DNA of 57,929 bases from a virus. The stretch covers positions 1-57,929 of the IMG/VR virus record IMGVR_UViG_3300025009_000123. One strand, given 5' to 3'. Below, piece by piece: positions 12,359 to 57,408 of the stretch. The notes below the pieces were generated by a model, which was not told where the DNA came from, did not search any database, and saw nothing but the letters and a program-made list of their open reading frames with translations. Within the stretch, counting starts at the first letter, position 1, and every line of letters starts with the position of its first letter. A program made the translations under genes and the position numbers.

Positions 12359-12843
12359 GTGAACTAATAGTCAAATGCGAACTATGCGACGAGATTATCT
12401 CTAAAACAACCGAGGAAGCCCTCTCGTTCCCAATGACAGGCGCCATGTTCCAATCGCCCGACCCGGAACATGGGATTCCGGCCCCGTTCGATCCTATTCT
12501 TTCCTGGGAGGATTTCAGGTGTCCACACGGTAGAACGCATCGACCATTCATAAGCCAAGAGGTAATATCGACAACTACAGGGCCTTACAGAGTGTCAAAA
12601 AATGGCGCACCCGGCGAATTTGTTGACAAAAGACCAGAAATCGACCGCGAATCAGTTATTGACAGGACGATTGTGCCGACAGATGAACAGGCTGCATCGA
12701 CTGTACGGGCCGAACTGAACAAAAACAAGGCGCCCGAAAAGAAACCAAACACCCAGGATCTGATTAAATGTGACGTTTGCGGGAGAAGTTTCCAGCAGCG
12801 AGGGTATTTGTCTCATAGGAATTCACATAAGGATAAAGAATAA
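12355..12843 (+). CDS. Protein with C-terminal C2H2 zinc finger
   Basis: A 162-aa protein. Near the N terminus is a CELCDE pair plus CPHGRTH, likely a zinc site. The last 25 residues form a classical C2H2 finger: CDVCGRSFQQRGYLSHRNSH, with two Cys, hydrophobic F and L, and two His in the eukaryote-like spacing. The middle is polar. It is in the packaging cluster, overlapping its neighbours on both sides. It may bind DNA or the packaging machinery. Confidence 0.65.
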   Translation: MSELIVKCELCDEIISKTTEEALSFPMTGAMFQSPDPEHGIPAPFDPILSWEDFRCPHGRTHRPFISQEVISTTTGPYRVSKNGAPGEFVDKRPEIDRESVIDRTIVPTDEQAASTVRAELNKNKAPEKKPNTQDLIKCDVCGRSFQQRGYLSHRNSHKDKE

Positions 12844-32650: not shown

Positions 32651-33697
32651 ATGAAAATTTATAAAAGGGTTGTTTTGAGTATCGAGACGGGGGAGATTAT
32701 CGATGAAGATAGCTTTGAATATTCCGGACAAATAGCTCTTTGCGGAGGCGACACCAAAACCATTGGCTCTACCATATTTGATCCGCTTAATTTGAGCGGT
32801 GTCCGAACGCCGGATACTCCGGATGCCCCAGGGAAGACTTCGGCAGAACAAAAGCTTGACCAACAGCAAATCAACCTCTTGCAAATACAAATTGAGAACA
32901 GCCAAAAACAGCAGAAACTTCAAGAGGAATTCGAGCCTTTTCAGCTTGAAGCAATGGGCTACAAGCGAGACATAAACGGCAAAATCCAGAAGATAGTAAA
33001 AGCGCCCGAACCGCCTACCCCGCAAGATATTTTATTGAACAAGCAGCTTGCCATGGCAGGGTTTTCTCCCACAGGGGAAAAATTAACCGAACAGCAAATG
33101 ATTGACCAAATGAGCGAAAGCGAAAAGGCGGACTATGAATTGACAAATATTTCCCGCCAGCGCCAGAAAGACGCCATTGAGGGCAAGATCCCGATCAGTC
33201 CCGCACTCGAAGAGGAGCTTGCAAGCGAAGAGAAACAGGCAACCGAAATGCTATCCCGCAAACTTGGGCCGAATTGGATGCTGACAACTCCGGGCCAGAA
33301 AGCCATGGTGAGCCTCAAACAAAAAGCCGAACTGCTGAGAGAGGAAGCCAGAAGGGGGCAGATAACTTCCGGCGAGGGGATTCTCGCGTCAAGGACGAAC
33401 CAGGAAAACTTGAAAAGCAATATGCTTTCAGGAATTTCTGGAACCATCGGGCTTGCTGCTGATATAAAAAACAACACCTTGAACCAGAAGACATCTGAGC
33501 TTTCCAGGATGCAAGGCTATGTGAGCTCGCTGGGGGGCGGAAATGCGTTTGACAATTCCCTCAGTCTGTCAAGCAAGTATGCGTCTGAACGGGCCAACAC
33601 TCAAAATCTTGCCATGCAAAAATGGACAACTCAACAGAACCAACAGAGTTCAAATACTTCGGCTGGTATGGCGGCAGCGGCAGCGGCAGCGGCTTAA
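32651..33697 (+). CDS. Probable ejection (internal virion) protein
   Basis: A 348-aa protein; start 32651 is set by GGAGGTAGGC just before it. Residues 1-35 (MKIYKRVVLSIETGEIIDED, YSGQIALCGG) are a recurring phage N terminus. The rest is Gln/Glu-rich helix and coil (LQIQIENSQKQQKLQEEFEP; YASERANTQNLAMQ), ending in a run of Ala. This composition and its place after the tail fibre suit pilot proteins ejected ahead of the DNA in podoviruses. Confidence 0.6.
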   Translation: MKIYKRVVLSIETGEIIDEDSFEYSGQIALCGGDTKTIGSTIFDPLNLSGVRTPDTPDAPGKTSAEQKLDQQQINLLQIQIENSQKQQKLQEEFEPFQLEAMGYKRDINGKIQKIVKAPEPPTPQDILLNKQLAMAGFSPTGEKLTEQQMIDQMSESEKADYELTNISRQRQKDAIEGKIPISPALEEELASEEKQATEMLSRKLGPNWMLTTPGQKAMVSLKQKAELLREEARRGQITSGEGILASRTNQENLKSNMLSGISGTIGLAADIKNNTLNQKTSELSRMQGYVSSLGGGNAFDNSLSLSSKYASERANTQNLAMQKWTTQQNQQSSNTSAGMAAAAAAAA

Positions 33698-33722
33698 TAC
33701 TATAAAGGAAAGGTTTAAATAT

Positions 33723-34589
33723 ATGAAGGACAAGATCGAATCAGCGAAAGAAATTATCAGCATGACGGACAAGAACTATAAAAACCCAATAATCTATACG
33801 GGTTTCGGAAAGGACTCCATCACCGTTTTACACCTATGTCGGGCCATGGGCTATAAGTGGGATGTGATGTTTCATCGAGATCCGCATTTTCCCAGGAAAT
33901 ACAGATACGCCAACAAAATTATTGATATGTGGAACGTGGTATGTCGGGATTATCCGGCGAGGTCCACAAGCATCTTTTACCGGAATGACACCTTTGAAGT
34001 TGTCAGGGAATATGGCATAGGATACGGCGCATTGATCTTATGCGCCCTTCTTTATAAGCCGGATGAATATATCGAGGGTGAATATCTTTGCGGTCTCAAT
34101 GATGTGTATCTGCAGCCCAAGGGGTCTGGCGATTATATTTGGGATGTAGCCCTTGAAGGATTCAGGACGGTTGAATCAAAACCCCATTCCGGAGGCCGGC
34201 CTTGTGGTTTAAGATGGGTTAATAAACAGAATATCGGGAGTGCCGACGTAGTATTTCCGCTTCACAACTGGACCGGCCAGGATGTTTATCAGTACATCAT
34301 AGACAATGGAATCCCGATCAATACGGACGTCTATGATGTAAAAGACGGGGAGCTTGTTCCTAAGATTGATCCAAAAACGGGGAAGATAGACAGCACCTAT
34401 AACCCGGATCGTCGGCCAGCCTGTACCGAGTGTATGCGCCCCGAAAACCCCCAAAGTGTTTTATGCCCTAAAAAAATGATGACAGTTAATAATGTGTGGG
34501 AATATCTCGTAAAAACAATAAGGCCGAATGATTTTCCGGGGTCTCAATGTGACGCGGAAAAGGATTGGTCGGAAAAAGGAGGAAAATAG
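33723..34589 (+). CDS. PAPS reductase/sulfurtransferase-like enzyme
   Basis: A 288-aa protein of the adenine nucleotide alpha-hydrolase fold. The PP-loop TGFGKDSITVL (residues 26-36) is a variant of the usual SGGKDS. A later WTGQDVYQYIIDNGIPIN is the helix typical of CysH-like enzymes, and GGRPCGLRW and PACTECMR carry the Cys residues. AAAGGAAAGG precedes its ATG. Relatives reduce PAPS, add sulfur to nucleic acid (DndC/phosphorothioate type) or have unknown phage roles. Lying between two ejection-type genes it may be packaged, or only be cotranscribed late. Confidence 0.75.
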   Translation: MKDKIESAKEIISMTDKNYKNPIIYTGFGKDSITVLHLCRAMGYKWDVMFHRDPHFPRKYRYANKIIDMWNVVCRDYPARSTSIFYRNDTFEVVREYGIGYGALILCALLYKPDEYIEGEYLCGLNDVYLQPKGSGDYIWDVALEGFRTVESKPHSGGRPCGLRWVNKQNIGSADVVFPLHNWTGQDVYQYIIDNGIPINTDVYDVKDGELVPKIDPKTGKIDSTYNPDRRPACTECMRPENPQSVLCPKKMMTVNNVWEYLVKTIRPNDFPGSQCDAEKDWSEKGGK

Positions 34590-35916: not shown

Positions 35917-38900
35917 ATGCTTATCGATTTTTTGACCGGGCTATTCTCTTCTAAAAAGAAACCTGATTACACTAATCCCGAAGAAAATGAATATCTGCAA
36001 AATATTCCCGACGCTACCGATCCGGAGCAAAACGAATACCTTCAAGATTTACCGGAAGTTGCCACGAAGGAGCCCGAAGTTGTAACCCCAAAAGGCGGAT
36101 ACGACTTAACCGGGAAGGGTGGGAAGCTATTTGTGCAGAGGCAACCCATCGATTATGACATGGGCGCCGAGGCCGCGATCCAGGAGTCCGCCGGATTAAG
36201 CGGAAAAATGAAGGAAATCGCTGACGCCAATAAACCAAGGTGGCAACCAGCCGGGCGCCCGATATCCACCTTGTCCGGCAAAGAAGTTCCGACGTCCGAA
36301 GAAAACTTAGAGACAGGCAATAAGAGGGGCTTGTTAATGATGTCCCTGCCTGCTTATGCGCTCGCCGCATTTACAAGAGGCGTAATCCCAAGAGCATTGG
36401 AAACGAGTGTCGGTAACGTCTATACAAAGACGTTCATGGGAAAAGATTATGTTTCGCCTATTGACGAAGCGTTAAAAGCGTCAGGTAAAAATATACCGGG
36501 TGCCGGACCCGCGATTATTGGCACAGCGGCGCAACTGACCGGCGCTACCGTACCTATCAGACTCGCTTTCAGGGCAGCAAACGAGATAATGGCAGCTATG
36601 GGCCTGCCAACCGACCTTGTTTTAAGCTCCGGATCAGCGGTCGAACAAATAGCTGCACACGCATTGAGGGGCGGAGCCGCAGGCACAATATACGGCGGAA
36701 CAACACAAGGCACACCCGAAGCCATGAAAGACGACGCCCTGTTCTTTGCAGGGTTAGAGGGCGCCCTGGGAGCCACCGGCATAGCCTTACAGAAGATGGT
36801 TGATTCGAATTGGTTCAGGCGTCTTACCGTCAAAGAGCGCGGCCTTGTGGTTCAAAATCTGGACGACATGATAGCAAGGGGATATCCGGTAGATGATTTG
36901 CTGGATAAGGGTTTTTCTCCCGACGACCTGATTAAAAAAGGATTCACCATTGACCAGGTATTTAACAAACAGCCCGAAGGGGCGGCGGCCGCATTTGCCA
37001 AAGCAAACGGAATAAAATGGCCCGTTGAAAAGCCTCTCGTACCAAAACCCTCAATCGGTCCTGGGCTCAGAAGCAATCAGGCGACAAAGAGAGCGGAGAT
37101 ACTAAAGAGAGAGCTTAACCCTGAAACAAACCAGTTATATACCGAGCCTGAAATAGCGGCTATATTAGAGAAAGAATTCGCTCCCGCTGTAGAAACCGTT
37201 CCTGAAACCGCCGCTGCGGCCGATCCCAAGGCCCAGACCAAGCAAATATACGACGCTTTTAAGGAACAGGCCGAGACCGGTGCGGATATCCAGGCTCTTA
37301 TTTCTGGTAAAAATACGATTGTTTCACAGTTCCCGCACCTTGAAGATGAACTCAATAAGATAATAATCGATGCAAAGGCAGCCAAGCCGATAGTTCCTCC
37401 CGTTGAGGTCAAACCGGAAACTCCGGAAGAGCCCGCCATTCCTGAAAAAGAAAGACACTTGATGGGCCGGGATGAATTCATCCAGAACGCCAAAAACAAG
37501 TTAGGAAATAAGTTTCTCCCGGACGGATCGCCGTTTGGAACGGAAGGACAATTTACAATAGCTGCCGGTGCGGCTCATAGGGAATTCGTTAAACAGGCCA
37601 TTGCATCCGGCGAATTAACCCCGAAAGACGCTGTTAAACTTCACAAGCAGGACTATTCAGATATCGAGACCTGGCCGGAGATGAAAGCCCCGGAGAAACC
37701 GATTGCCCCCGAGACCTCGCCAGACTCGACCGCCTCTTTCGAGCCACCAAAACAGGCCCAGGGGCAAGTGCTTTCTGTTCCGATTGAATCCCTAACCGTA
37801 GCACCTGAAAAATTTCAATGGCGCCGGAATCTCGGACAGGGCGGAGTTGATTCATCCCTAAAACACATTAAGGTATGGAATCCGGATCTGGCCGGAGTTG
37901 TTGCTGCCTGGAAAGACCCTGCAGATGGAAAAACATATATTATTAATGGACATCACAGATACGAAAGAGCCGCCGCGCTCGGAGTCAAAAACCTCGATAT
38001 CAAGTACATCAATGCGCCCGACGCAAAAAACGCCAAGATGATCGGCGCATTAATCAATATAGCGGAAGGACACGGAGATCCGGTTGATGCAGCTATCGCC
38101 TTAAGGGAATCCGGAAAGACAGGGAAGCAGCTTGAAGAGGAATACGGCATATCGTTAAAGCGCTCGCTCGCCCAAAAGGGTTTTGCCTTGTCTAAACTTG
38201 ACAGAGGAATTATAACTGCGATTCAAAACGGCGAGATCCCGGAAGAATGGGGCGTAATTATTGGCAATTCGATTGAGAGCGAAGACACCCAATGGCTTAC
38301 TGTAAAATCACTTTTAAGGGAAAAGGCGAAGGGCAGACGGATAACGGATCGTTTTGTCGAGGAATACACCAATGAAATAAACGGCATACCTAAAATCGTT
38401 CACGTTCAGAAGATCCTGTTTGGTGATGAAGTTACCGAGACCCCAATTATTGTAGAAAGAACCGAACTCCGCGAATACGCGGCGAAACAAATAGCCGAGG
38501 ATAAGAGCCTGTTCGGGCTGGTAAGTAAGTCTTCAAAAGCTCAAAGGCTTACCGAAGAGGGAAGCACCGTTGATGTTGACAGGAGCAAGAAAATAGCCGA
38601 AGATGCGAAGACAGCATCCGAGGCCCTTGCAAGATTCGCATCCATAAAAGGAATTATAAACGACCTCTTAAACAAATATGCGGAGGAATTAGCAAATGCA
38701 AAATCAACAGGAACCAGAAACGAAATCAAGCAAAACTTCTATGGAGAACTCCGAGCCGCAATTCCCGACGTTATCGCAGGGCGATTGGGATCAGGTAGCG
38801 GGGGAGTTTCTAAGGATAGTGGACCCGAAGCTGTTAAACCAGCCGAAGAAACCGTAGACAAAGAAGTCCACGACTACAGCAGCGCCCAGGTCAATCTCCC

Positions 38901-41900
38901 CGAACCGAAAGTTGGTTTTGTGAGAGTTTATCGTGGTGAGGAATCGTTAAAAGGCAAGCCCGGTAAATATACAGGGACATCATTTTCCCCAGACATAGAA
39001 TACGCAAAAAGATATGGGCGAGAAGGGAAGGGCGGTGTTTACTATTTAGACATACCGGTCGAGTTAATGACAGACGCTAAATATGCACATTTAAGACGCT
39101 CAGCAGATGGTGTTGTGCATGAGATTGCCGTTCCTAAAAATTTACAATCTCAATATGGTGGGAAAAAGCCGACAACCCCTACAGCCCCAAGCCCTGACAA
39201 GCCTACTCCACCAGATGCCGCCAAACCGGAGATCAAGAATCCGGAGGGTACTGGCAAGCCCGAAAGCCAGCCAGCAAAGCCGACAATGGAAAAGTTTGCC
39301 GAAAAAACGCCGGAGGAAAGAAAAGATGCCGTTGCTCTCGCAAAATCATTCACTCCTGGCGATAAAGTTTCATGGACTGACAGCAAGGGCGAAGCGCATA
39401 CAGGCAAAGTAGCAAAAAGACAAACCGGCTCGATAGGGCAGGATTACCGAGACCAGGGACTTGTGCTCGTATCGACCGACGCAGGAAATAACACCGTATC
39501 CGCCGATCTATTAAAAAAGGAAGTTGAAGCAAGTCCTTCGGATACAACACCATTTGATAAATGGAAATCCGGTCTGAAACTAATTAAAGAACCTATCAAG
39601 GGAAGTCAGGCTACAAAAAATTATTATGAGGATTCCGAAGGAACGAGGATTAGCCTTTCCGACACAGAGTCACAAGAGGGCTTGGATAAGAGGTTGTTAG
39701 ATATTTATAATTTAAAAGAGGAGGCTCCGGCTGATACTACCGGAAAGATTGAAGACTTCGGGGAAAAGATAGGTGGGGCCAGAAAAGATACTGCCGAAAG
39801 CGGCTACACCCTGGTCGGAAAAGAGAAAAAAGAATCATCCGCTCCGGCATGGCGCAAGAAATATGTTGCAATGGAAAAGGTTGATGGAACCGGATGGACT
39901 ATTGGGAAAACAGGTGATCGGCCTGGCATAAGTGCTCGCTCTTCTCAAAAGTTTGCCCCGAAGGAAGAAGCTGAAGCAGCCATTCCTCTTCTTGCCGTTG
40001 CTGATAGCCATAGGGTTTACCAGGGCCGAACCGACACCGGTTATTCGATATTCAAGAAGGTTGGAGAAAAGAAACTCTTCAAAGTTGTTAATCAAGACTT
40101 CCCTTCTCGCGAAGAAGCTATGAAATACATGGCCGAACATGCTGAAGAAATTTTGAATATCAAGACAACTTTTGGCGAAGAAATTCTCCCCGTACCCGAT
40201 AACGCACAGCGCAAAGGGATTGAGCGCAGAACAATAGACGCAACGCCTGAAATGTTTATGGAAACATTCGCGCCGAGAGGCATTGAGTTTGGGAACTGGA
40301 ATAACCAGGAAGAGCGCCAATTAATAATGAACCATGCGTATGATGGCCTCCTCGATCTTGCGGATGCGCTTAATTTACCTCCGAAAGCACTCATGCTAAA
40401 CGGTGAGCTTGCAATAGCATTCGGGGCCAGAGGGCAGGGTCTTTCCGGGGCAAAGGCACATTATGAACCTGATTATGGAGTTATCAATCTGACAAAGATG
40501 AAAGGCGCTGGCTCGCTTGGACATGAGTGGATGCACGCCTTTGACCATTATCTCGCAAGGCTTGATACCAAAGCCTCATCAGAAAAGAAACCGAATGAGC
40601 GCGGGGATATGGTTTATAATAGATCCGCCAACAAAATAGACTTTCAGAGCCATGGAGCCAGTTATAAAACACAGTTAAGACCGGAACTCAAAACCGCTTA
40701 TGATACATTGATTGATTTGATGTATAAAAGGGCGGAGCAATATGTTGAGGACACAAAACAGGCGGACAAGTTTATTGAGACGGCCCGCGAGAACCTTAAA
40801 ACAGCACTGAATGGTATTCGCTCCAATTTGACACAAGACATGACGAATTATCACAAGAGCAAGGGGGGATATAGTAGTAAATCCATTAAATACTTTGAGC
40901 CAGCATCGGCTGAACACCTTGCCGAATTTGACCGACTTGCGAATATTCTTATTGAAGGCGGGGACTTAAAAACAGAATTCAGATACAATAAGCCTGAAGG
41001 CGCAAACACACCAGCTATGCGACCAAAGGGAATGAGCAACGCCGCACATGGAAAATTAATCTCACATCGTTATTCAAACGATACGCTTGATGGTATTAAC
41101 GCCGTTCTGAAAACAGTACGAAACCGACAGGGGTTTAATAAAGAAGGTCATGGCTATCTTGACCGAGTTCGTGCGGCCATGAACACCTATTCCGAAAGAT
41201 TAAAGATGCTTGAGGATGCAAAGGCCGGAACTGAAAAAACAAAGAAAGTATCCACGTCTTATGCGATTGAAGCCAAAAAGATGGATCAGGCGCGCTCCAG
41301 CGATTATTGGAGCGAGCCGCATGAAATGGTTGCAAGGGCTTTTGCCGCTTATGTTGAAGACAAAATAGCAGAGACCGGTGGACAGAGCGATTTTCTTGTT
41401 TATCGTGCTCATGGCGGTATCCTGCTTCCAATGATTGACGGATTCGTAGCAAGGCCATACCCTGAAGGCGCTGAAAGAATAGCGATAAATCAAGCGTTTG
41501 ACGCATTTGTTAAAGAGATCAAAACAAAAGAAACCGATAAAGGTACGGCAATTTACGAACCCGCCACGCCCTATTCCGTGGAAACCGAAATTCCCATATA
41601 TAAAATGTCCGAAAACGGGGACTTGACAAAAGCTCCGAACAATGTCTATATTAATGAAAAGCAGATGGGGTTGTTTGTTCGCAACGAACATCAAGGGAGG
41701 CTTTTCAATGAAAAAATATCCAATGCCGGTAAGCGGCCTAAAAATATGCCAGCCGGTACTGAAGCACCACAAGGACGGGAGATATCCGGAGTTCGTGGAG
41801 ACATGGGATACCGGCCTGAATCCGGAACCCTGCCCGAAATCAGCTCAAAACCCATCGGAAAATGGGAATCATCCCGAAGCAGCATAACCTCCCCTGAAGA

Positions 41901-44900
41901 CGTTGCCGTAATCGCAAGGGATAATATTGGGGACGATGCCCAAGAATCTCTCATTTCCATCGTCACGGACGACTCAGGTAAAATACTTGCCATAAATCAA
42001 CACGCCATAGGCGGTCCCGGAAGATCACAGGTTTTCCCAGCTATTTTATCGGGCCAGATATTAAACATTCCTAAAGGTAAAAACGCCTGGTTAGTCCATA
42101 ACCATCCTGCTGGTGTGTCCGATGTGTCGCCCGAAGATGAGTTTATTTCCACAAATACTTCAAAGATTCTATCTGGTTCTGACATTGTATTGCATCCCAT
42201 AATGGCGATCACGCCGAAAGAATACTCAACTTTCAGATCTCCTGCTATTGCGATTCCGGCAAAAGAAAAAGCCACACACACATTTGATGTCCTCGGGAGA
42301 AAGTTCGATGTCCATCCGGAAGGACTTGCCGCTGTGTCCAGTCCTGATATGATGGCTGAATTCGGTGAAAAATATGTCAAGAACGGCGGAATCATTCTCT
42401 TAAACACGAAACTTCATCCGCTTGCCATTATAGAGGTTTCAGACTATTCCAAATTAAAACCCGATCATCTCAAAATTCTTAAAGAGGCGGAGAAAAGAAA
42501 CGCCTCGGCTTTTATGGTTTACGACAAAAACAGAAAGGTTTCCGAAGAAGGCATGCGGAACCTTTTGAAATTTGAGAAAGCCACGACCTTGCAGTTTATG
42601 GCATTGCACGACAAGACCGGCGAGATGTCGCATTGGATAGACACGGCGCGGATTTCCATTGGGGATAATAACGAGTTTTTTTCTATTAAAGGACAAGGAG
42701 GAAAAACAAATGAAGGACGAAGAGCCGTTGGTGAGAATAAAAACGGAGAACGGGGAGACGTATTACCCGAAGTTCGAGAAGAACACGCGAGACAAGTGGA
42801 CGCCCAAAGACAAGTCTCTGCAAAAAACCCTCAGGCACCGAGCGCGTTCCGAGAAGCCTGTGAAAAAGGGCAGGGGCTAACTCACTATCCGGAAGGATAT
42901 TCTGACCCCGAATTTGCCGAATTGCGCGATATTTCAGAAGGGTATGGACTTGATCTTGTTCCTGTCAAAGATACCAGCGACACCATAAACGCGGTTATCA
43001 GGGACGGGCGCGTTTTCCTGAACATGATGCGAGAGAAAGGCAGCGACACCCTGAAGCATGTCGTACTGCACGAAATCAGCCACGCCAAGGGTAACGAAAC
43101 AACTCAGGAAAAAATAGACACGCAATCCGAGGCATTTAGAAAGTATCGGCATAAATTAAGCTGGTACTACTTCGGTACGCCCTCCCGTTTGCTTTCGACA
43201 AAGCATGTGTTGGAAGAATTTGCCGCCGATTTGGAGAGTGGCATTGATTCGCGGTATGGGATAAAGCTGGCTGACGGATTGAAAAAGGGCGAGACAATTG
43301 CGCCGATAACAATAGATAGGGTAAGCCAGATAGGAAAGGAGACGAGAAAGGCGAGAGGCCCGCCAGAAAATGAACAATATTCCGTCCGGAAAAAAGAAGT
43401 CCCCGGATCTCTATTCCCAGAAGTCAACAAACGGTTAGAAGAATCGAAGGGAATCAAGTATGCCTCATTAACCGACAAAACCAAAGACGCCCTTGTTACA
43501 GGATGGGAGAGTTTTACACGACACTTCCCGCACCTGGACCCGAAGACTGACGGCGAGGTTATTGATATTTTCCGAAGATTCCAGGATGTGCCGGGATGGT
43601 CGAAGCATGAAACGATCCGGAGACTTGAAGAGTTTGTTGGAAAGCTCTCCCCTGGGGATCGTCACGTTTTCACCATGAATATCATTTTGCCTGATATGTT
43701 GAGGGACTTAGACAGCGGGCCTCTTCAAATTGAAGAAGACCAGGAGCTACCCTTTGGTTATAAAAACAAAGAAGAAGTTGAGCAGGACAGGGACAACTTT
43801 AAAGATCTGGCCGATAATAACCCGGCAATAAAAGAGGCTCTTGCAAAACGGAATACCTTTATGAAGTCTCTCACGGATCAACTTGTTGAGCACGATCTCC
43901 TTGACGGGGAAAAAGCGAAAGATCCAGCGTCTTATTTTCATCACCAAGTTTTGGATTACATGAATTACAAGGAAAATCCGAATTGGGGTATCGCTTCTAG
44001 GGATGTCCGCACCCACAGAAAGGGTTGGCAGATAGGCCGTGTCGGATCAACCCTCGACTATAACACCGAATACGTTGAGTCCGAATTCGAGGTTATATCC
44101 CAGGCATTGACACAAATAGAGACGGTAAAAACCCTTAAAAGGATCAAGGACGCCGCAGACATCAAGCCGGAGCTGGAGGCCCAGGCCAAAGATCAGAACA
44201 TGAAGGCCTTTTATAAAAAGGCCATGACTAACCCGCTCGAAGATCCCCTGGCGCCGTATAAGCAACAAATAGCCATAGGATACAGCAAGCTCGGTAAAAT
44301 GGTCGCTGCTGGAACGCTCGAAGCTCCCTCTTCATTTGACGACGTTATTGAGCATATAGCGGACCAGGCAGAGATCCGTAAAGCATCAAAACAGGACGGA
44401 GTGGAATTCAATCCCGAAAGCCATCCGAGAATGTTCGCCCTTTTAAACTATCTTGTGACTCACGGAGGCCCAGGATCGGGACCGGCGACCATGATATTTA
44501 AAGCGATTGTCGATAGAAACGCCTTTATCAAACAGGTTGTCGGGAAAGATTGGGTTACTTATAACGATTTAATTCCAGAAGGATACGAAGCCCATAAACC
44601 AGAGGCGAGGAGCGCTTTCTATTTTGCAAACACTATGACGGATCAGGCTCTTTCCATGGTTGTTTCAGGGAAAAAGGATTTAAACGACGTTATCAAACGC
44701 GAGCTGGTTCGCGGTTATGACGAAATATGGATTGTAAAGAAAGGCATATCAAAAACACTCAACGAATTCAGGCCGGCTATTGAGGGATCGCTCCCGGAAC
44801 GGATCTCGGCAGACATGCTTTCCGTGTGGAAACAATGGGTGCTTATGAATCCATATAGAGTTATCAAATATAATCTTAATAATATGAGCGGTGATCTTGA

Positions 44901-46488
44901 CATCTGCCTTGCTTATGATCCGAAAATAGTTTGGAACTATTTCTGGCCCGCTTTTAAAGATCTGGTTGCGGCATCGAGGGGCAAAGCTACATCTTTCCTC
45001 CTGGATGATCTGTCTGATATGAATAAGCTCGGCGTTATAGGTTCCGGCATGACCAATATAGATATACCAGAATTAAGCGGGGTTGAATCCATCAAGGGTC
45101 TTGTTGATTTCTTTGACGGCAAATCGAAAAACGCCCTGACCAGATGGTATAATATGAATAAGCAGCTCTCAACTCTCCGAGAAAATATCCTCCGACTGGC
45201 TGCATACAGGTATTTTCTGGACAAATTGAACAAGGGTGAGTTGGTTTACGGCGCCTCGAGGAAGACCGAAGTTGATCCGATAGAGGACAAGAGCGAAAAG
45301 GCCGCGAAACTGGCGAGGGAACTTGTTGGGGACTACGGGAATATAAGCCATGCTGGTCAATGGGTTCGCAAAAGATTGATCCCGTTCTGGAGCTGGAGCG
45401 AAATAAACGCGCCCCGGTATGTCCGGTTGATGAAAAACATAAGGTATGAGATGGGCGATGATTTTATCGATATGATTCCGGATGAATCGGGAGAATACGC
45501 TATGAAGAGAGGGGGGGATTGGTCTCGTCGATACCGGAGATATGGCAAAATGGGCTCTGTATTCGCGTGGAAGGGGACGAAGTTGGCGGCTTTCGCCTCT
45601 GCGCTTATGGGCATGGTTATGATGTGGAACGCGGCCATGTTCCCGAAAGAAGAAAGAGAGCTCCAAAGATCGGGCAGGGAACAGCTTCATTTAATCCTTT
45701 ATCGCCGGAAAGATGGATCGATTGTAACGATTAGATTCCAGGGCGCACTTTCGGACGCGCTTGCCTGGTTTGGCATGAGTAACCCGGTGGAACAGATAAA
45801 GGAAGTCTATAAAGGTGAAAAGGGTTCTGGCGAACTGACAAAAGATGTTTTAACCGGAGCGCCCTTGAAGATATTCCAGGGGTTGAGGCCAGAGCCGAAA
45901 ATATTATACGAAGTCCTATCCGGACAGGGGTTCTATCCCGATCCACTGCATCCTCGGCCGATAAGAGATACCACAGAGCACATTTTGAGGACATTCTCTC
46001 TCGATAAACTTTACAATATGGCCGCAGGCAAACCAAGAAAAGGCGGTTCATGGGAAAGCCAACTATTAAGAGACATCGAGGGAATGCTATTGTATGAAGC
46101 GGACCCGGGGGAGCAGGCATATTATACAATCCGTAAAGACGTCTTTGATTGGTTAGAGAAAAACGGTAAAGAAAAGCCGGTAACCATGCCGACCGGCAGG
46201 GCCAACAATCTATATTATTATAAACAAGCCTTGAAATATGGTGACTTTGACGCGGCTCAGAGATACCTCAAAAAATATGAGGAAGCTGGCGGAAAGTGGA
46301 AAAATATCAGGACGAGCATTAAACGTGCTGATCCGCTGGCGTCTTTGGGAGGACGGGACCGCAGAAAGTTCAGAGAAACTCTGACGCCTGAACAGAAACA
46401 GACCCTTCTTATAGCAAGCGAGTGGTATAAGAGGCATTATGTTGATACATATAGAGACCCAAGGGCGAGAAAGGCGGCTACTGAATAA
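35917..46488 (+). CDS. Giant polyvalent ejected protein (3,523 aa)
   Basis: Last and largest late gene. Rough domain order: Ala/Gly-rich amphipathic part (about 130-310); ParB/DdrB-like domain (about 620-800) with NGHHRYERA near 677; ADP-ribosyltransferase-like part (about 1000-1075) with VRVYRGEE and GTSFSPD; SH3-like part near 1145-1205; zincin (LPD1-like) with HEWMH at 1536-1540 and a downstream HE at 1802; RadC/JAB deubiquitinase-like domain (about 1985-2190) with HNHPAG at 2061 and S-x-x-D after it; second zincin HEISH at 2385-2389 with LEEFAAD near 2431; then a 1,100-residue helical C-terminal part with a membrane-like segment near 3222-3241. Multi-domain 'polyvalent' proteins are injected with phage DNA to counter host defences (as DarB of P1). 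Encoded after ejection proteins, so co-ejection is likely. Confidence 0.8.
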   Translation: MLIDFLTGLFSSKKKPDYTNPEENEYLQNIPDATDPEQNEYLQDLPEVATKEPEVVTPKGGYDLTGKGGKLFVQRQPIDYDMGAEAAIQESAGLSGKMKEIADANKPRWQPAGRPISTLSGKEVPTSEENLETGNKRGLLMMSLPAYALAAFTRGVIPRALETSVGNVYTKTFMGKDYVSPIDEALKASGKNIPGAGPAIIGTAAQLTGATVPIRLAFRAANEIMAAMGLPTDLVLSSGSAVEQIAAHALRGGAAGTIYGGTTQGTPEAMKDDALFFAGLEGALGATGIALQKMVDSNWFRRLTVKERGLVVQNLDDMIARGYPVDDLLDKGFSPDDLIKKGFTIDQVFNKQPEGAAAAFAKANGIKWPVEKPLVPKPSIGPGLRSNQATKRAEILKRELNPETNQLYTEPEIAAILEKEFAPAVETVPETAAAADPKAQTKQIYDAFKEQAETGADIQALISGKNTIVSQFPHLEDELNKIIIDAKAAKPIVPPVEVKPETPEEPAIPEKERHLMGRDEFIQNAKNKLGNKFLPDGSPFGTEGQFTIAAGAAHREFVKQAIASGELTPKDAVKLHKQDYSDIETWPEMKAPEKPIAPETSPDSTASFEPPKQAQGQVLSVPIESLTVAPEKFQWRRNLGQGGVDSSLKHIKVWNPDLAGVVAAWKDPADGKTYIINGHHRYERAAALGVKNLDIKYINAPDAKNAKMIGALINIAEGHGDPVDAAIALRESGKTGKQLEEEYGISLKRSLAQKGFALSKLDRGIITAIQNGEIPEEWGVIIGNSIESEDTQWLTVKSLLREKAKGRRITDRFVEEYTNEINGIPKIVHVQKILFGDEVTETPIIVERTELREYAAKQIAEDKSLFGLVSKSSKAQRLTEEGSTVDVDRSKKIAEDAKTASEALARFASIKGIINDLLNKYAEELANAKSTGTRNEIKQNFYGELRAAIPDVIAGRLGSGSGGVSKDSGPEAVKPAEETVDKEVHDYSSAQVNLPEPKVGFVRVYRGEESLKGKPGKYTGTSFSPDIEYAKRYGREGKGGVYYLDIPVELMTDAKYAHLRRSADGVVHEIAVPKNLQSQYGGKKPTTPTAPSPDKPTPPDAAKPEIKNPEGTGKPESQPAKPTMEKFAEKTPEERKDAVALAKSFTPGDKVSWTDSKGEAHTGKVAKRQTGSIGQDYRDQGLVLVSTDAGNNTVSADLLKKEVEASPSDTTPFDKWKSGLKLIKEPIKGSQATKNYYEDSEGTRISLSDTESQEGLDKRLLDIYNLKEEAPADTTGKIEDFGEKIGGARKDTAESGYTLVGKEKKESSAPAWRKKYVAMEKVDGTGWTIGKTGDRPGISARSSQKFAPKEEAEAAIPLLAVADSHRVYQGRTDTGYSIFKKVGEKKLFKVVNQDFPSREEAMKYMAEHAEEILNIKTTFGEEILPVPDNAQRKGIERRTIDATPEMFMETFAPRGIEFGNWNNQEERQLIMNHAYDGLLDLADALNLPPKALMLNGELAIAFGARGQGLSGAKAHYEPDYGVINLTKMKGAGSLGHEWMHAFDHYLARLDTKASSEKKPNERGDMVYNRSANKIDFQSHGASYKTQLRPELKTAYDTLIDLMYKRAEQYVEDTKQADKFIETARENLKTALNGIRSNLTQDMTNYHKSKGGYSSKSIKYFEPASAEHLAEFDRLANILIEGGDLKTEFRYNKPEGANTPAMRPKGMSNAAHGKLISHRYSNDTLDGINAVLKTVRNRQGFNKEGHGYLDRVRAAMNTYSERLKMLEDAKAGTEKTKKVSTSYAIEAKKMDQARSSDYWSEPHEMVARAFAAYVEDKIAETGGQSDFLVYRAHGGILLPMIDGFVARPYPEGAERIAINQAFDAFVKEIKTKETDKGTAIYEPATPYSVETEIPIYKMSENGDLTKAPNNVYINEKQMGLFVRNEHQGRLFNEKISNAGKRPKNMPAGTEAPQGREISGVRGDMGYRPESGTLPEISSKPIGKWESSRSSITSPEDVAVIARDNIGDDAQESLISIVTDDSGKILAINQHAIGGPGRSQVFPAILSGQILNIPKGKNAWLVHNHPAGVSDVSPEDEFISTNTSKILSGSDIVLHPIMAITPKEYSTFRSPAIAIPAKEKATHTFDVLGRKFDVHPEGLAAVSSPDMMAEFGEKYVKNGGIILLNTKLHPLAIIEVSDYSKLKPDHLKILKEAEKRNASAFMVYDKNRKVSEEGMRNLLKFEKATTLQFMALHDKTGEMSHWIDTARISIGDNNEFFSIKGQGGKTNEGRRAVGENKNGERGDVLPEVREEHARQVDAQRQVSAKNPQAPSAFREACEKGQGLTHYPEGYSDPEFAELRDISEGYGLDLVPVKDTSDTINAVIRDGRVFLNMMREKGSDTLKHVVLHEISHAKGNETTQEKIDTQSEAFRKYRHKLSWYYFGTPSRLLSTKHVLEEFAADLESGIDSRYGIKLADGLKKGETIAPITIDRVSQIGKETRKARGPPENEQYSVRKKEVPGSLFPEVNKRLEESKGIKYASLTDKTKDALVTGWESFTRHFPHLDPKTDGEVIDIFRRFQDVPGWSKHETIRRLEEFVGKLSPGDRHVFTMNIILPDMLRDLDSGPLQIEEDQELPFGYKNKEEVEQDRDNFKDLADNNPAIKEALAKRNTFMKSLTDQLVEHDLLDGEKAKDPASYFHHQVLDYMNYKENPNWGIASRDVRTHRKGWQIGRVGSTLDYNTEYVESEFEVISQALTQIETVKTLKRIKDAADIKPELEAQAKDQNMKAFYKKAMTNPLEDPLAPYKQQIAIGYSKLGKMVAAGTLEAPSSFDDVIEHIADQAEIRKASKQDGVEFNPESHPRMFALLNYLVTHGGPGSGPATMIFKAIVDRNAFIKQVVGKDWVTYNDLIPEGYEAHKPEARSAFYFANTMTDQALSMVVSGKKDLNDVIKRELVRGYDEIWIVKKGISKTLNEFRPAIEGSLPERISADMLSVWKQWVLMNPYRVIKYNLNNMSGDLDICLAYDPKIVWNYFWPAFKDLVAASRGKATSFLLDDLSDMNKLGVIGSGMTNIDIPELSGVESIKGLVDFFDGKSKNALTRWYNMNKQLSTLRENILRLAAYRYFLDKLNKGELVYGASRKTEVDPIEDKSEKAAKLARELVGDYGNISHAGQWVRKRLIPFWSWSEINAPRYVRLMKNIRYEMGDDFIDMIPDESGEYAMKRGGDWSRRYRRYGKMGSVFAWKGTKLAAFASALMGMVMMWNAAMFPKEERELQRSGREQLHLILYRRKDGSIVTIRFQGALSDALAWFGMSNPVEQIKEVYKGEKGSGELTKDVLTGAPLKIFQGLRPEPKILYEVLSGQGFYPDPLHPRPIRDTTEHILRTFSLDKLYNMAAGKPRKGGSWESQLLRDIEGMLLYEADPGEQAYYTIRKDVFDWLEKNGKEKPVTMPTGRANNLYYYKQALKYGDFDAAQRYLKKYEEAGGKWKNIRTSIKRADPLASLGGRDRRKFRETLTPEQKQTLLIASEWYKRHYVDTYRDPRARKAATE

Positions 46489-46718: not shown

Positions 46719-47702
46719 TCATCCAAATACCGACCTAATCTGTTGAGAATGTTTTTTAAATGTAGTGTGTAAATATATCTGGGTCGTGCTGATACTCGCA
46801 TGGCCAAGCATGTCCTGAACGCTCTTTAGATCTGTGCCGCCTTCGAGTCCGTGGCTCGCAAAGGCGTGTCTCAGCATGTGCGGCGTAACCCCTTTAACGC
46901 CAGCCCGCTTAAGAGTCGCCTTCCATGCCGTCTTAAACGATCCGATATTGTCCCATACAAACAGGCTGGAAGAGGATGATTCTTGATAGATTAAAAGCGA
47001 TTCTAAAAGCATGGATGATAGTGGGATTATCCTTTCCTTATCGCCCTTGCCGTTTACTCTGAGATATCCTGATTCAAAATTGATATCAGACCATTTTAAA
47101 GAGCGGGCCTCCTGTGATCTTAAGCCGGCATGGTACAGGGCTATAAACAATGAGCGGTGAAATGGGCCTGACGCATGTTCGATTATGCGATATATCGTAT
47201 CCGGATCAGGGATGTCGGGTAATTTTTTCTTATATGGCAGGGGGCTTAACTTCATTGATGGTTCATTACACAGGCCGCGCCCAAATCCCCACTTCAACAT
47301 GGCCTGCAAGCACAGCAATTCCAGATTGACCTGGCGATATATTTTCCTTCCGTCTCCAAGCCTTTTTTGTTTATAGGCATCGACGATTTGCGGTGTTATC
47401 CGGTCCGGCATTAGCGCCCCAAAGTAGGGCAATATCGACGCAAACAGCATGCGCTTTTTTTCTCTTGCCGTCTTGGCCGCCTGGTGCATATCCATCCAGA
47501 CGATATATTTTTCAGCAACAAAAGATATGTTGTAGGCTGACAAATCTTCCCTGCCAAGCTCACGGCGGTATTTTGTTTCAAACGCCAGGGCTTCTATATC
47601 CGATCTCGCCTTAACCCTTTTGCGAAAGCGATATCCCCTGCTGCCCATGGGAATATTAATATCATATACTCCGGTTCTGACTTTTCGGATCGACATAATC
47701 AT
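46719..47702 (-). CDS. int: Tyrosine integrase
   Basis: A 327-aa recombinase. An N-terminal arm-binding part (SIRKVRTGVYDINIPMGSRG) and SAM-like core-binding part precede the catalytic domain with Arg195 (GLRSQEA), HMLRHAF giving His275 and Arg278, LGHAS giving His301, and nucleophile Tyr310 in IYLHTT. The start at 47702 follows GAGGAATATTAAAA; the longer frame to 47807 overlaps the gene before it. Last gene of the leftward operon and adjacent to attP, as in lambda. Confidence 0.92.
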   Translation of the reverse strand: MIMSIRKVRTGVYDINIPMGSRGYRFRKRVKARSDIEALAFETKYRRELGREDLSAYNISFVAEKYIVWMDMHQAAKTAREKKRMLFASILPYFGALMPDRITPQIVDAYKQKRLGDGRKIYRQVNLELLCLQAMLKWGFGRGLCNEPSMKLSPLPYKKKLPDIPDPDTIYRIIEHASGPFHRSLFIALYHAGLRSQEARSLKWSDINFESGYLRVNGKGDKERIIPLSSMLLESLLIYQESSSSSLFVWDNIGSFKTAWKATLKRAGVKGVTPHMLRHAFASHGLEGGTDLKSVQDMLGHASISTTQIYLHTTFKKHSQQIRSVFG

Positions 47703-47850
47703 TTTTAATATTCCTCTTTTTTTGAAACCGCAAGACATCATTTTTAACCTTTTCCTCCATCTGTGCCGGAGACAGGCTGGGGGTCTTGTCCAGTCCGAGG
47801 GCAACAAGTATGAGGTCTAATTTGCGGTTTATGGTTTCAAGGTCGTTCAT
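47662..47850 (-). CDS. Small helical protein before int (62 aa)
   Basis: Reads MNDLETINRKLDLILVALGL then LSPAQMEEKVKNDVLRFQKK. It overlaps the integrase start by 41 bp in another frame and the GIY-YIG gene by ATGA. It looks like an amphipathic helical protein; excisionase cofactor or coupling ORF are possible. No family recognised. Confidence 0.5.
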   Translation of the reverse strand: MNDLETINRKLDLILVALGLDKTPSLSPAQMEEKVKNDVLRFQKKRNIKNDYVDPKSQNRSI

Positions 47851-52921: not shown

Positions 52922-53341
52922 TTATCTAAAATCCCCATCCTGATAATCAATTTCGTTAGGGTTCGGAATATAACAGCCTAAAAATTCCGCAGCCCACCTT
53001 TGAATCTGTTCATAGTATTCAATAAACCGTTTTGTATCCATCTTGGCCGTGCTCTCGGTAATTGTCAGCCCGGTTTCCGGATCAATTTTACTGGCAAACT
53101 TAACCTTTAAAGCGTCGTGCATTGAGTCCTTGTCAAACCCTGTATGATTGCTTAAAATCTCAATTACAATTCCCCAGTACGCGGCATTCTGCTGTAGGGA
53201 ACGCTTTGATTTCGGCAGTCTTAAAATCAGTTCAATCTTTTTGCCCTCGAGTGCAGCCAGTCTCACAATATATTTATGAGGATTATCGAGTTTCAGCTTG
53301 CCTTTTTCTATTGTGCCGGTGAAGACAGGGTTCATGCCCAT
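52922..53341 (-). CDS. NinB/Orf-like recombination protein
   Basis: A 139-aa protein with SKRSLQQNAAYWGIVIEILS, HDALKVKFASKIDPE and RFIEYYEQIQRWAAEFLG, the pattern of NinB/Orf proteins that help load recombinases in lambda-like phages. It overlaps the SbcC stop and is thus coupled. It supports a recombination-dependent role for the operon. Confidence 0.75.
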   Translation of the reverse strand: MGMNPVFTGTIEKGKLKLDNPHKYIVRLAALEGKKIELILRLPKSKRSLQQNAAYWGIVIEILSNHTGFDKDSMHDALKVKFASKIDPETGLTITESTAKMDTKRFIEYYEQIQRWAAEFLGCYIPNPNEIDYQDGDFR

Positions 53342-55821
53342 GTCGGATTTTCCCCTGCCTCAAACTTTAGAATATGATCAGCAAGGTTCCTGCAAGATGG
53401 CTTATGTGATATAAAATACAGGGTTTTGAATTTCCCTATCTGCATAAAAGCCTGATACATCTTTACGAAGTTTATCGAATTATCGGGATCTAAGGGACCA
53501 TCCATTTCATCGGCAAAAGCCGATTCATACACTCGCCCTGATTTCTCCTGACTTAATAACGTCATGGCCAACCTGAGAGCCATTAAGATCCATACCCTCT
53601 GGCCTCCGGAAAGATTTTCAAGCAAAACCTCGGTTCCATCGTCTGCTATTGTCACTATGTCCAGACATTCTTTGCCATCGTCGTCAAGCGTCCTGAACTT
53701 AACAGAGAATAAAGGCCCGAATGCCTGAGATAATAAATCGTTGGCATAACCAGTGATCAGGGGTGCAGCACCGTCTATTTCCAAAGCCTGTAGCCCGTTC
53801 TTCGAGCAAGCATTCCTCAGGTAAGTCCATTCTGAGGCGTTTCTTACCAGCAGGTCTTTCTGCCCCTGTATTTCCAAGAGTTCCTTTTCGGCATCGAGCA
53901 TACTTGATAAATCATGGTTGGCTTTCGATATCAGGTCCCGGACTTCGGCAATCTTTTTTTCAATTAATGGGAGTTGTTTTTCGGCGTCTTCGATATTTTG
54001 TTTTGCTATTGCGAGTTCGGTTTCGGCGCCGTGATTAATGTCCTTGTCAATTTCAGCCTGCTTAATAACAAGCTCCTGAATCTGCTGCAATTTGGCCTGT
54101 TCTTTCTCTGTCCATGTGGCCCGGAGTGTTTTCCCTGCTGCGGTTATTTCCTCTAATTTGGCTGTGATATCGGCTTTCCGGATAATTGCTATTTCCAGTT
54201 CTGCTTTGCGTTCCGAAAGAGCCTTGACTTCTGCCAGTTTCTTCTGAGAGGTTTGAATATTTCCCTTCGTGATTTTTAGTTGGTCAGAATATTGAAGGTG
54301 GAGATGTTTTACGGCTTTTATTAACCTCTCTATTGTTGTGGCCCCGTCCGATAACGCTGCCTGTTTGGTAATATTTTCTTGCAGTCTGGTATCCGCATCC
54401 TGTTCATTCAGTTTGTTTTTGCCCTTTAAAATATCAATTTCAATCTGTATGTCTGACCGTTCCTTTTCGACCTCGGCTTTTCTTTCCCCACATTCAACCT
54501 CGGCTCCGGGAAGCGCATCACGGGCAGCGAGGGCATCTTTAATATACAGACAGGAATTTTCACCCTCTGGACACCCGGGATCTCTGAAAGCCAGTTTTTT
54601 AATGCTTTCCTTGTGCTGTTTAATCGCGCTTTCAAGCTCGTATAGTTTGCGGTCATTATCCAGATTCCGAAGAGATATCAACTTGCTGTCAATGTCGTTT
54701 TGAGTTTGAAGAATCAACCGGGTAAGCTCGGTGAGTTTTGGATCATTATCCAGATCCCTTACCGACTGTCTTTTAATCAGCAATTCAGATTCAAGCCTGT
54801 GAATTTCAGCCAGACTTTTTGAAATTTCTTCGGTAAGCTGCTCAACAATTTTATTAAGATCCAATACCTGATTATTGAGCCATGCCTCTGTATCACCCGC
54901 CTCGTTTATTGCGTCCTGGATTGATATCACGGCCTCGAATTTTGCCAGTTCTGCAGAAACCTCACGATATTTCACTTTTAAGACTTCGATCTCTGTTTCC
55001 GCCCCTGATTTCTCTGCATCTAACTCTTTCTGCAGCTTGCCAATATTTTCCGCGATATCTGCCCGGCGCTGAATTGCGATTGTGTTTTGTGCCAACTTTT
55101 CTTTGAGCTTTTCAACAAGTTCCCGGTAGGAAATGAGCTCCGCTTTTTTACAGTCAAGATCAGCAACAAAAGAAATATGTTCTCGCTCATGCGTTTCGAT
55201 ATCTTTCCGGGCCTGCTCAATTCCTGACAGCTTTTCTTTGAGTGCCGCGATCCGGATATCAACCTGACTCGCTTTCCCATTAATTACATTCGCGCACTGT
55301 TTCGCGGTGTTCTCGTATTCGACAAGACGGTCTAAGCGCAGGAATTCAGAAAACAACTCCTTGAGCTTACCTGTCGTCAGATCTGATAGTTTTTTTGCGT
55401 TCTGTGAGCAGAATACAGAATTATAAAAAAGCTCCGGAGATCCGAAGAGGTCTTTCATGTATTTTGCGTATGCGGATATTTTCCCGTTTACAACCGGTTC
55501 CCCATCCAGCCAGATATATCCTTCGGACTTTTCAGAATCGCAGTCTATTTTTAATAGAGTTTTGTAATGATGGCCCTGATAGCTGAAAGAGAGTTCTTTC
55601 TCGGAATCCCTCAAATATACATGCCGGAATAAAGCGCCTTCTCTTGAAGCTAACTGATTGTACGGCCCCAAATTCTCAAGGACAGTAGATTTCCCCGCTC
55701 CGTTCATTCCATCAAAAGCGACAAGGCCGGAAATGTTCTTGAAGTCTATTTCTATCTCGTCCAGGCCAAGCCCTTTCTGGATGCCAGTGAAGCCTTTTAA
55801 TCGTAGTTTTTCTATTATCAT
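53332..55821 (-). CDS. sbcC: SbcC/gp46/Rad50-like ATPase
   Basis: An 829-aa SMC-type ATPase. Walker A GMNGAGKST near 37-45, two long coiled-coil arms (about 180-650), a hook between them with CPEGENSC near 417-424 (two Cys five residues apart, a wider spacing than the classical CxxC zinc hook), ABC signature LSGGQRVWI near 735, and Walker B with FADEMDGPLD near 768. With SbcD it should process ends and hairpins. The start at 55821 follows AGGGGG and overlaps the methyltransferase by ATGA; the longer frame to 55848 lies within that gene. Confidence 0.88.
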   Translation of the reverse strand: MIIEKLRLKGFTGIQKGLGLDEIEIDFKNISGLVAFDGMNGAGKSTVLENLGPYNQLASREGALFRHVYLRDSEKELSFSYQGHHYKTLLKIDCDSEKSEGYIWLDGEPVVNGKISAYAKYMKDLFGSPELFYNSVFCSQNAKKLSDLTTGKLKELFSEFLRLDRLVEYENTAKQCANVINGKASQVDIRIAALKEKLSGIEQARKDIETHEREHISFVADLDCKKAELISYRELVEKLKEKLAQNTIAIQRRADIAENIGKLQKELDAEKSGAETEIEVLKVKYREVSAELAKFEAVISIQDAINEAGDTEAWLNNQVLDLNKIVEQLTEEISKSLAEIHRLESELLIKRQSVRDLDNDPKLTELTRLILQTQNDIDSKLISLRNLDNDRKLYELESAIKQHKESIKKLAFRDPGCPEGENSCLYIKDALAARDALPGAEVECGERKAEVEKERSDIQIEIDILKGKNKLNEQDADTRLQENITKQAALSDGATTIERLIKAVKHLHLQYSDQLKITKGNIQTSQKKLAEVKALSERKAELEIAIIRKADITAKLEEITAAGKTLRATWTEKEQAKLQQIQELVIKQAEIDKDINHGAETELAIAKQNIEDAEKQLPLIEKKIAEVRDLISKANHDLSSMLDAEKELLEIQGQKDLLVRNASEWTYLRNACSKNGLQALEIDGAAPLITGYANDLLSQAFGPLFSVKFRTLDDDGKECLDIVTIADDGTEVLLENLSGGQRVWILMALRLAMTLLSQEKSGRVYESAFADEMDGPLDPDNSINFVKMYQAFMQIGKFKTLYFISHKPSCRNLADHILKFEAGENPTWA

Positions 55822-56231
55822 AAAACCCCCTGTTTCCTGAATATGCACAACATTGAAGGACGCATTGCTCCCGCCTTTGAAAACCCGACAAACTTAATAC
55901 GCCCTCTCAAAAATCTCAATTCCGCTTTGCCATAAACGTAATCGTGAAACCATGCCGTATCTGTATTGGCAAACACCAGAAAAACTATGACATCAGCATT
56001 TTTATTGAGTTCCGCCTGAGCCTTAATAAGCCATGCCTTGACTTGAGAATAGGGTGGATTCACAAAGACATTGCCGGTCCAGTCTATTTTCAGGCCATCA
56101 AAATCAGCATGTAGCGGGCAAGGGTCAAAGTTAAAATGAAACTCGGTATCAAGTTGCTTGTACAGATATTCAGGAGTTCCCCAATCATCAGTTATTTTAG
56201 ACCCGAATAATTTTATTGAGTTTTCATCCAT
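55818..56231 (-). CDS. Phage DNA N6-adenine methyltransferase
   Basis: A 137-aa Dam-like phage methyltransferase: DDWGTPE (15-21), FDPCP (35-39) and NPPY (58-61, the catalytic amino-methylase motif). It overlaps sbcC and sbcD by a few bases on each side. It may modify phage DNA to avoid restriction. The length is typical of the short phage family. In the left version of the locus this gene is replaced by the octapeptide-repeat gene. Confidence 0.85.
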   Translation of the reverse strand: MDENSIKLFGSKITDDWGTPEYLYKQLDTEFHFNFDPCPLHADFDGLKIDWTGNVFVNPPYSQVKAWLIKAQAELNKNADVIVFLVFANTDTAWFHDYVYGKAELRFLRGRIKFVGFSKAGAMRPSMLCIFRKQGVL

Positions 56232-57408
56232 TACCTACCGCCTGAATCAGATCATCTGATAACATATCTTCCAGAAGTTCTGCCTTCATCAGAATAGACC
56301 ATTCAACCTCTTCCTCTTTGAGTTCGGCCATTTTCTGTATCTTGTCTCTGAGGGTTTCAGATTTGAGCACCGCTTCTGATCGTACATTCTGGCGGGGAAT
56401 TCTGACGATACGGATATCGACATCGAGGGCGCCGGATGCAAGCAGCTCCTGAGTGATTGCATCTTTGTCTATGGCTCCGGCTTCATCCTGCCAGACCTTG
56501 CAATCCAGCCTGATAAATGAACCGTTAATGTCTCCAATGGAAAAATCAACTGGGCCGGAACCTTCCGTAAAGTCGTGACTGAACCTTGTCATTTTCTTTG
56601 CAGGAGTTTCAATAAAACGTGAAGTGGGACCCAGGGCGTCAATCTCATGGACATAAAACCCCTTGGCTTCCATTTCGCCCCAATTCTGATGGTAAAGAGA
56701 TCCGCTGTAAAAAGCATGAGATCGATGTCCTAACTCCTGGGCTTTATGGATATGGCCGAGACAGATTAAAGCGGGCCGCGCAAACATTATTTGTTCGACG
56801 GAAACCTCAATATCCATCCCTGTCCGGACCTGCCCGTTGGAAAGCATGGCCCCAGACACGTTAAAATGCCCGACAAGGATATGCGGGCAATCAAAACCCT
56901 CCGCCTGAACCCCGAAACCAGAAAAAAGCCCCGACATTGCATTACCTATTTCCTGATCGCTGTCGGCAATACCGGAATTTGTCTGGAAAAATTGTTTATT
57001 TGGCTGCGGTATGAGAGTGATGATCGCGTCGGGTTTCGCTGTGCATCCATCCATATTCTTATAAAAGCCATGCCCGAAAAAGAATATCTGCTCAGGCATT
57101 GAAGCTACATAAACCGGGAACATGCCTTTTGCGAATCGCAGGATTTCCGGAGATTTACCATCATGCGAGCTTGTCCCGATTATAATCGCAACCGGCGCGA
57201 TATCAGCCAGTTCGGAAACAACTCTGACTGCAAGCCTTGCAGCTTTTGAGTCCAGCTTGATTTCCTGCGAATCAAAGGTATCTCCGGCGTTAATAATAAG
57301 ATCAACTTTCTCTGATCGCGCGGTTTCAATCAGAAAGTTAAGGCATTTTTCAGCCTCTTCGATGTCTTTGTCGCGCAAATGGGCATCGGCGTAATGAAGT
57401 ATTTTCAT
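56224..57408 (-). CDS. sbcD: SbcD/gp47/Mre11-like nuclease subunit (right haplotype)
   Basis: A 394-aa protein with the same motifs as the left copy: ADAH near 8, GDTFD near 43, SHDG near 85, GHFN and GHIH. AAAGGATTATACCC precedes the ATG, and 21 bp separate it from the preceding gene, without an HNH insertion. Identity to the left copy alternates between near-identical blocks and clearly diverged ones, as expected for recombining populations. It is coupled to the methyltransferase and sbcC, so this is the version that belongs with the SbcC in this window. Confidence 0.88.
   Translation of the reverse strand: MKILHYADAHLRDKDIEEAEKCLNFLIETARSEKVDLIINAGDTFDSQEIKLDSKAARLAVRVVSELADIAPVAIIIGTSSHDGKSPEILRFAKGMFPVYVASMPEQIFFFGHGFYKNMDGCTAKPDAIITLIPQPNKQFFQTNSGIADSDQEIGNAMSGLFSGFGVQAEGFDCPHILVGHFNVSGAMLSNGQVRTGMDIEVSVEQIMFARPALICLGHIHKAQELGHRSHAFYSGSLYHQNWGEMEAKGFYVHEIDALGPTSRFIETPAKKMTRFSHDFTEGSGPVDFSIGDINGSFIRLDCKVWQDEAGAIDKDAITQELLASGALDVDIRIVRIPRQNVRSEAVLKSETLRDKIQKMAELKEEEVEWSILMKAELLEDMLSDDLIQAVGNG

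Follow-up and report, generated by a model that had tools for sequence, protein, structure and literature searches.

A single gene in the window, by which we mean the whole 57,929-base stretch of viral DNA analysed here, encodes a protein that joins the known class of "polyvalent proteins" (Iyer et al. 2017, PMC5512222) as a new member. The product is probably a phage-type polyvalent protein that the virion carries and ejects together with its DNA, and in which constant ends (hydrophobic N-terminal segments with a ParB-like module, and a C-terminal region of ~1,035 residues that we call the chassis) surround an exchangeable payload. This reading is supported by the observed open reading frame, by intact active-site residues in a RadC-type JAB domain and in a first zincin, by purifying selection, by the finding of another payload within a near-identical shell, and by reuse of both chassis and payload in other giant proteins. 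The new elements are the clean natural cassette swap and a chassis not listed before; the object itself is of a known kind and the surprise is moderate.

The giant gene starts with ATG, 5 bases downstream of its ribosome-binding site, and remains open for 3,523 codons without an internal stop. It takes up 18.2% of the record, which bears out the initial annotation of a 3,523-residue product encoded by nearly a fifth of the genome. Genes for terminase, portal and capsid start a rightward block of which the giant is the last gene, and the integrase that adjoins it lies on the opposite strand (Table 1). The chain combines biochemically disparate domains (ParB-like, zincin/LPD and RadC), where the class calls for at least two, and is phage-borne beside virion genes, with terminase, portal and capsid upstream and integrase downstream. 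These same genes fit a temperate phage, as had been proposed, and it is reasonable to read the window as a temperate tailed phage; the short tail that was also proposed is only likely, from gene order. Among annotated phages, the portal (12843-15083) and capsid (16871-17845) are closest to those of the archaeal Methanosarcina virus MetMV, at 26-28% identity, and this virus has a comparably placed giant of 3,002 aa with undetectable similarity to the window chassis. An SbcC-like and SbcD-like phage-encoded pair occupies 53332-57408 on the minus strand.

Table 1. Features of the giant gene and its downstream neighbour, in window coordinates (aa, residues of the giant protein).
Feature	Position	Strand	Basis
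Polyvalent protein gene, 3,523 residues	35917..46488	+	ORF, GGAG ribosome-binding site
Constant N-terminal part, aa 1-591	35917..37689	+	98% identical in sister, dN/dS 0.10
ParB-like module, aa 610-934; GHHR aa 678-681	37744..38718	+	PHROGs, alignment, weak PDB ParB match; dN/dS 0.05
Exchange site 1, ART-like stretch, aa 981-1086	38858..39172	+	75 unrelated residues instead in sister
Shared bridge, aa 1086-1205	39173..39532	+	91.7% DNA identity to sister
Exchange site 2, payload cassette, aa ~1206-2250	39533..42666	+	sister: methylase + Strawberry-notch helicase, diverged RadC allele
LPD5, aa 1365-1450	40009..40266	+	Pfam PF18799, 30.8 bits vs cut-off 27
Zincin 1 HEWMH (predicted), aa 1536-1540	40522..40536	+	8-protein phage alignment; NCBIfam CLCA_X partial, below cut-off
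LPD1, aa 1789-1871	41281..41529	+	Pfam PF18796 E 1e-20
RadC-type JAB, aa 1990-2107; JAMM E2010, H2061, H2063, S2071, D2074	41884..42237	+	Pfam, profile, fold
Putative zincin 2, HEISH aa 2385-2389 (43069-43083)	42814..43371	+	motif; 97% identical in sister, dN/dS 0.09
C-terminal helical chassis, aa 2488-3523	43378..46485	+	common to 14 loci; helical model; LPD38-like structure-library matches
Tyrosine integrase, directly downstream of giant	46719..47807	-	phrog_1 E 2e-52

Comparison with a sister phage (IMG/VR contig 3300037048_000031; L002, G001), whose version of the giant has 4,760 residues, revealed the modular construction of the protein. Some 66% of the window can be aligned to the sister, 45% at >90% identity, both outside and inside the giant gene; parts of the genome beyond this gene differ as well, and the cassette is not the sole difference. 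Residues 1-980 are encoded at 97.3% DNA identity, while the 106-residue stretch at aa 981-1086 is replaced. Beyond the shared bridge, aa 1206-1966, which hold the LPD5-zincin-LPD1 block, give way in the sister to ~1,730 unrelated residues comprising a methylase-like region and a helicase of the Strawberry-notch type, followed by a RadC that is a diverged allele (segment dS 1.9, versus a shell dS of 0.07-0.20). At aa ~2252 the identity leaps from ~45% to 93-100%, and from there it is ~95% to the end, interrupted by a short gap (aa 3178-3215) and by a 260-residue insertion that precedes the chassis in the sister. This insertion resembles part of another giant with a marginal ART-PolyVal match. 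Purifying selection acts on the flanks (dN/dS 0.05-0.16), with 0.30 in the short bridge. The simplest account of these alignments would be that a cassette of ~1,045 residues was exchanged by recombination within flanking homology. The two phages constitute a natural experiment, the same shell with another payload, which makes the action of each cassette per host and delivery by the constant ends testable.

The cassette of the window carries a predicted peptidase. The conserved phage block LPD5-zincin-LPD1 was placed at aa 1274-1883 by PHROG and NCBIfam, and H1515, H1536, E1537, H1540, D1543 and E1803 are invariant in an alignment of eight phage proteins. In phage-type polyvalent zincins, a His ends strand 2, an Asp lies three residues past HExxH, and a Glu is contributed by a later or the last helix (PMC5512222); this arrangement is predicted here from H1515, H1536 and H1540 of HEWMH, D1543 and E1803, the last being a candidate third zinc ligand. 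Because E1803 falls within the LPD1 of Pfam, LPD1 is predicted to form the final helix of this peptidase. The HEWMH protease of the initial annotation is thus borne out as a predicted zincin within a conserved block. For the HEISH protease that it also named, the motif is present, and the zincin fold would rest only on this motif and on E2433/E2434 downstream; profile searches with this second putative zincin gave no match, and conservation of HEISH at 2385 was seen only in the sister. Two HExxH motifs occur in the whole protein where 0.1 are expected by chance. Of 12 giants, 6 have an HExxH at most 400 residues ahead of the chassis, where shuffling predicts 0.16. The published first reading of polyvalent zincins is self-processing (PMC5512222), and the HExxH that half of the giants have shortly before the chassis is consistent with zincins that would cut the giant chain into working units; attack on host proteins is possible. 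A repeated junction motif, [FY]S[VIL][RKQ], was considered as a processing site and set aside as unconvincing (2 seen versus 0.5 expected).

The RadC-type JAB domain was recognized by Pfam (E 1e-8), by profile comparison to RadC 2qlc (E 1e-15) and by fold (TM 0.81 to 2qlc). The JAMM motif (E-HxHx7SxxD) fits, and its E, both H and D are invariant across eight sequences; the predicted fold comes with an intact JAMM site. A second, catalytically dead JAB past this domain was also considered, and profile comparison of the two halves gave no support. In the 2017 survey, RadC was reported only in polyvalents of conjugative elements (PMC5512222). We found RadC in the giants of the window, the sister, three further viral contigs and a Candidatus Desulfobacula maris MAG, and in two viral contigs in which the chassis was not detected. 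Judged from sequence, phage-type polyvalents that carry RadC are an exception to the published rule. A tblastn search with the RadC region of the window matched 44 plasmid records and none of 50,697 phage records; a single divergent query can show absence only weakly. These phage cases widen the range of the domain beyond the polyvalents of conjugative elements; the role of RadC is a long-standing question.

Hydropathy revealed hydrophobic segments at aa 139-157 and 274-292 and another at aa 3223. The ParB domain described in the initial annotation was upheld as a ParB-like module by an ADG...GHxR signature invariant across four phage giants, those of the window, a cyanophage, a Ruegeria phage and a fosmid phage. 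Two PHROG ParB profiles matched the region (~602-934) at E 0.0035 and 0.011. The signature is that of DdrB-like ParB, with the active-site Arg (R681) present. A Pfam scan of the module gave no match, and its best PDB match, to a ParB, was weak (E 0.13). The module may be a nucleotide-gated nuclease or NTPase. The region also has a long match to phrog_21 (E 5e-57), whose "portal" label was rejected as a mislabel of the C-terminal part of that profile, since the real portal lies at 12843-15083.

Less can be said for the ADP-ribosyltransferase proposed at aa ~997-1085. Relatives of this stretch are absent from Pfam, PDB, phages and viral contigs, neither profile nor fold matched, and the low-confidence local model (pLDDT ~25-45) leaves the fold open; the identity was rejected as unsupported. 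The only sequence that the stretch shares is the seam VHDYSS(A/T)QVNLPEP at aa ~990-1003 (about 38884-38925), which recurs at aa ~558-571 of a chassis-bearing giant (G005) ahead of different domains, its partner there being the start of a 2H-phosphoesterase. From this recurrence, the seam is a possible module-joining point.

The long helical tail noted earlier was confirmed in the predicted model, where the C-terminus is almost entirely helix. This chassis is present at 14 loci of relatives, on viral contigs and on MAG contigs of Desulfobacula, Nitrospirae, Magnetominusculus, Denitrovibrio, Geobacteraceae, Desulfuromonadaceae and Flavobacteriales; a sample of 395 genomes from the phylum to which the Candidatus Desulfobacula maris MAG belongs added a further partial match. 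The giants that end in it on viral contigs include proteins of 5,581, 6,506, 6,677 and 6,823 aa. The three longest (G006, G004 and G003, in ascending order) are single open frames that amount to 24-37% of their contigs and are very large for phage proteins. The payloads ahead of the chassis differ: methylase-SNF2, 2H/Acb1-like, ART-PolyVal, PBECR2 and PBECR3. In the G005 giant (L024:8994-13499), the 2H phosphoesterase stands just at the cut-off for Acb1 (anti-CBASS; 27.1 versus 27 bits), with ART-PolyVal and a methylase-helicase further along. In-frame stops in the Denitrovibrio relative (L013) were considered as stop-codon recoding; they are a mixture of TAA and TGA, which points to a decaying copy.

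The chassis matched none of 50,697 annotated phage records, and in PDB there were just low-probability matches to long helices. Pfam PF18857 (LPD38) gave no match to it, and no positive control gave a signal either. In a viral structure library, the chassis matched polyvalent/LPD38 proteins with E down to 5e-13, at low TM-scores and from a low-confidence model (mean pLDDT 53). Homology to the giants of Parlo and MetMV, which have the same gene position, was considered and rejected, similarity being undetectable; the positional inference is therefore not one of homology. Giants of 3,263 and 4,344 aa carry the LPD5-zincin-LPD1 block at 55-71% identity, one of them together with RadC; the chassis profile, which works elsewhere, finds nothing in either. 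Together with the presence of the chassis under other payloads, this indicates that module and chassis travel separately. Two giants (G410 in L045 and G409 in L043) carry the peptidase block of the window with MuF-C domains and unrelated C-termini, the former also with RadC.

From the class and from the examples of JC1, P1 and N4, we propose that the giant would be packaged in the phage head and then ejected with the DNA, that the chassis may handle packaging or ejection, and that self-cut parts or the payload would act within the first minutes of infection. More tentatively, and with somewhat less than even chances, the chassis could be a general delivery platform of an undescribed phage group, onto which anti-defence cassettes, including a virion-delivered RadC, are swapped by recombination. 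If true, this would be a natural platform for injection made of one chain, in which up to ~5,800 residues precede the chassis.

Three other explanations were weighed against delivery of an exchangeable payload. The giant might be mainly a structural ejectosome protein in the DNA conduit, comparable to T7 gp16 or to the virion RNA polymerase of N4, with enzymes that are accessory or decaying. The helical C-terminus, the hydrophobic segments at either end (aa 139, 274 and 3223) and the finding that an Autographiviridae (T7-like) cyanophage has the ParB-like module in its own giant of 2,563 aa would all suit such a part, and mosaicism is known for ejection proteins (PMC8954989). We nevertheless consider it unlikely, given that the catalytic residues of RadC and zincin 1 are invariant, that the segments are under purifying selection, and that the size of the payload differs severalfold among giants, unlike a fixed conduit part. 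Expression of the domains from the prophage, mainly for superinfection exclusion or lysogeny rather than delivery, is suggested by the integrase adjoining the giant gene; this is hardly to be expected of a gene that ends the rightward terminase-portal-capsid block with the integrase on the other strand, and whose positional counterpart in JC1 is found in virions (PMC9144972).

The remaining alternative is that of the initial annotation, an arsenal of proteases and a deubiquitinase in which the JAB would strip off the ubiquitin-like tags that Bil or type II CBASS attach. The JAMM site is intact, and the 2H domain at the Acb1 cut-off in a chassis relative makes counter-CBASS a plausible theme of the group. 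Against this, the best structural match is RadC, and the deconjugating JABs are more distant (AfJAMM only at E 0.8, a Bub protein weakly). Because RadC-type JABs are unlikely to have a groove for the ubiquitin tail, nucleic acids or nucleotides have been argued to be their probable substrates (PMC5512222), and the giant protein matched none of the PADLOC defence models. This alternative is accordingly very improbable: the RadC-type assignment stands, while an isopeptidase role of the Cap3/BilD type and the removal of ubiquitin-like conjugates find no support. Nothing was found to favour such conjugates, and the RadC of the window would act on nucleic acid or nucleotides.

Among known systems, the closest are the phage-type polyvalent proteins (PMC5512222), which share with the window giant the union of unrelated enzyme domains in one giant, the HExxH peptidase, LPD1, LPD5, a ParB-like domain and a place downstream of virion genes; the window giant differs in its RadC and its uncatalogued C-terminal chassis. 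Multi-tool proteins acting at entry are the accepted reading of this class (PMC5512222), and the initial description of a toolbox attacking host proteins on entry agrees with it in the entry stage and the multiplicity of tools, while its ubiquitin-deconjugation and ART parts are unsupported. The RadC domain resembles RadC of Chlorobium tepidum (PDB 2qlc) in the fold and JAMM residues of aa 1990-2107, yet is fused within a giant phage protein and followed by ~150 conserved residues without a known fold.

The combination had also been thought unusual for a short-tailed temperate phage, which proved wrong. Giants are routine at the same place in Bcep22-like podophages, among them Parlo, and Stx podophages share the peptidase block. 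In the DarB-like giants of Bcep22-like podophages (JC1 gp69, Parlo), as here, the giant is last in the virion block, follows a ~410-510-aa protein and represents ~20% of the genome. JC1 gp69 (4,515 aa, 22% of the genome) was detected in purified virions by mass spectrometry with 51 unique peptides (PMC9144972); the Parlo giant (3,764 aa) differs in having no sequence similarity to the window chassis. A PAPS-reductase-like gene stands close to the giant in both the window (33543-34589, two genes upstream) and JC1, where the counterpart is similarly placed. The LPD5 giants of Stx podophages (e.g. vB_EcoS_P27) share the LPD5-zincin-LPD1 block at ~39-44% identity, in different surroundings and with no RadC or chassis match found there. 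The methylase plus SF2 helicase that characterizes DarB is absent from the window protein, the helicase being found in the cassette of the sister. Phage P1 DarB and DdrB offer the parallel of virion-packed antirestriction proteins, with the ParB theme of DdrB in the window giant and the DarB theme in the methylase-helicase cassette of the sister; in P1 these functions are distributed among several proteins, and the N-terminal 30 aa of DarB direct capsid targeting (PMC9024508).
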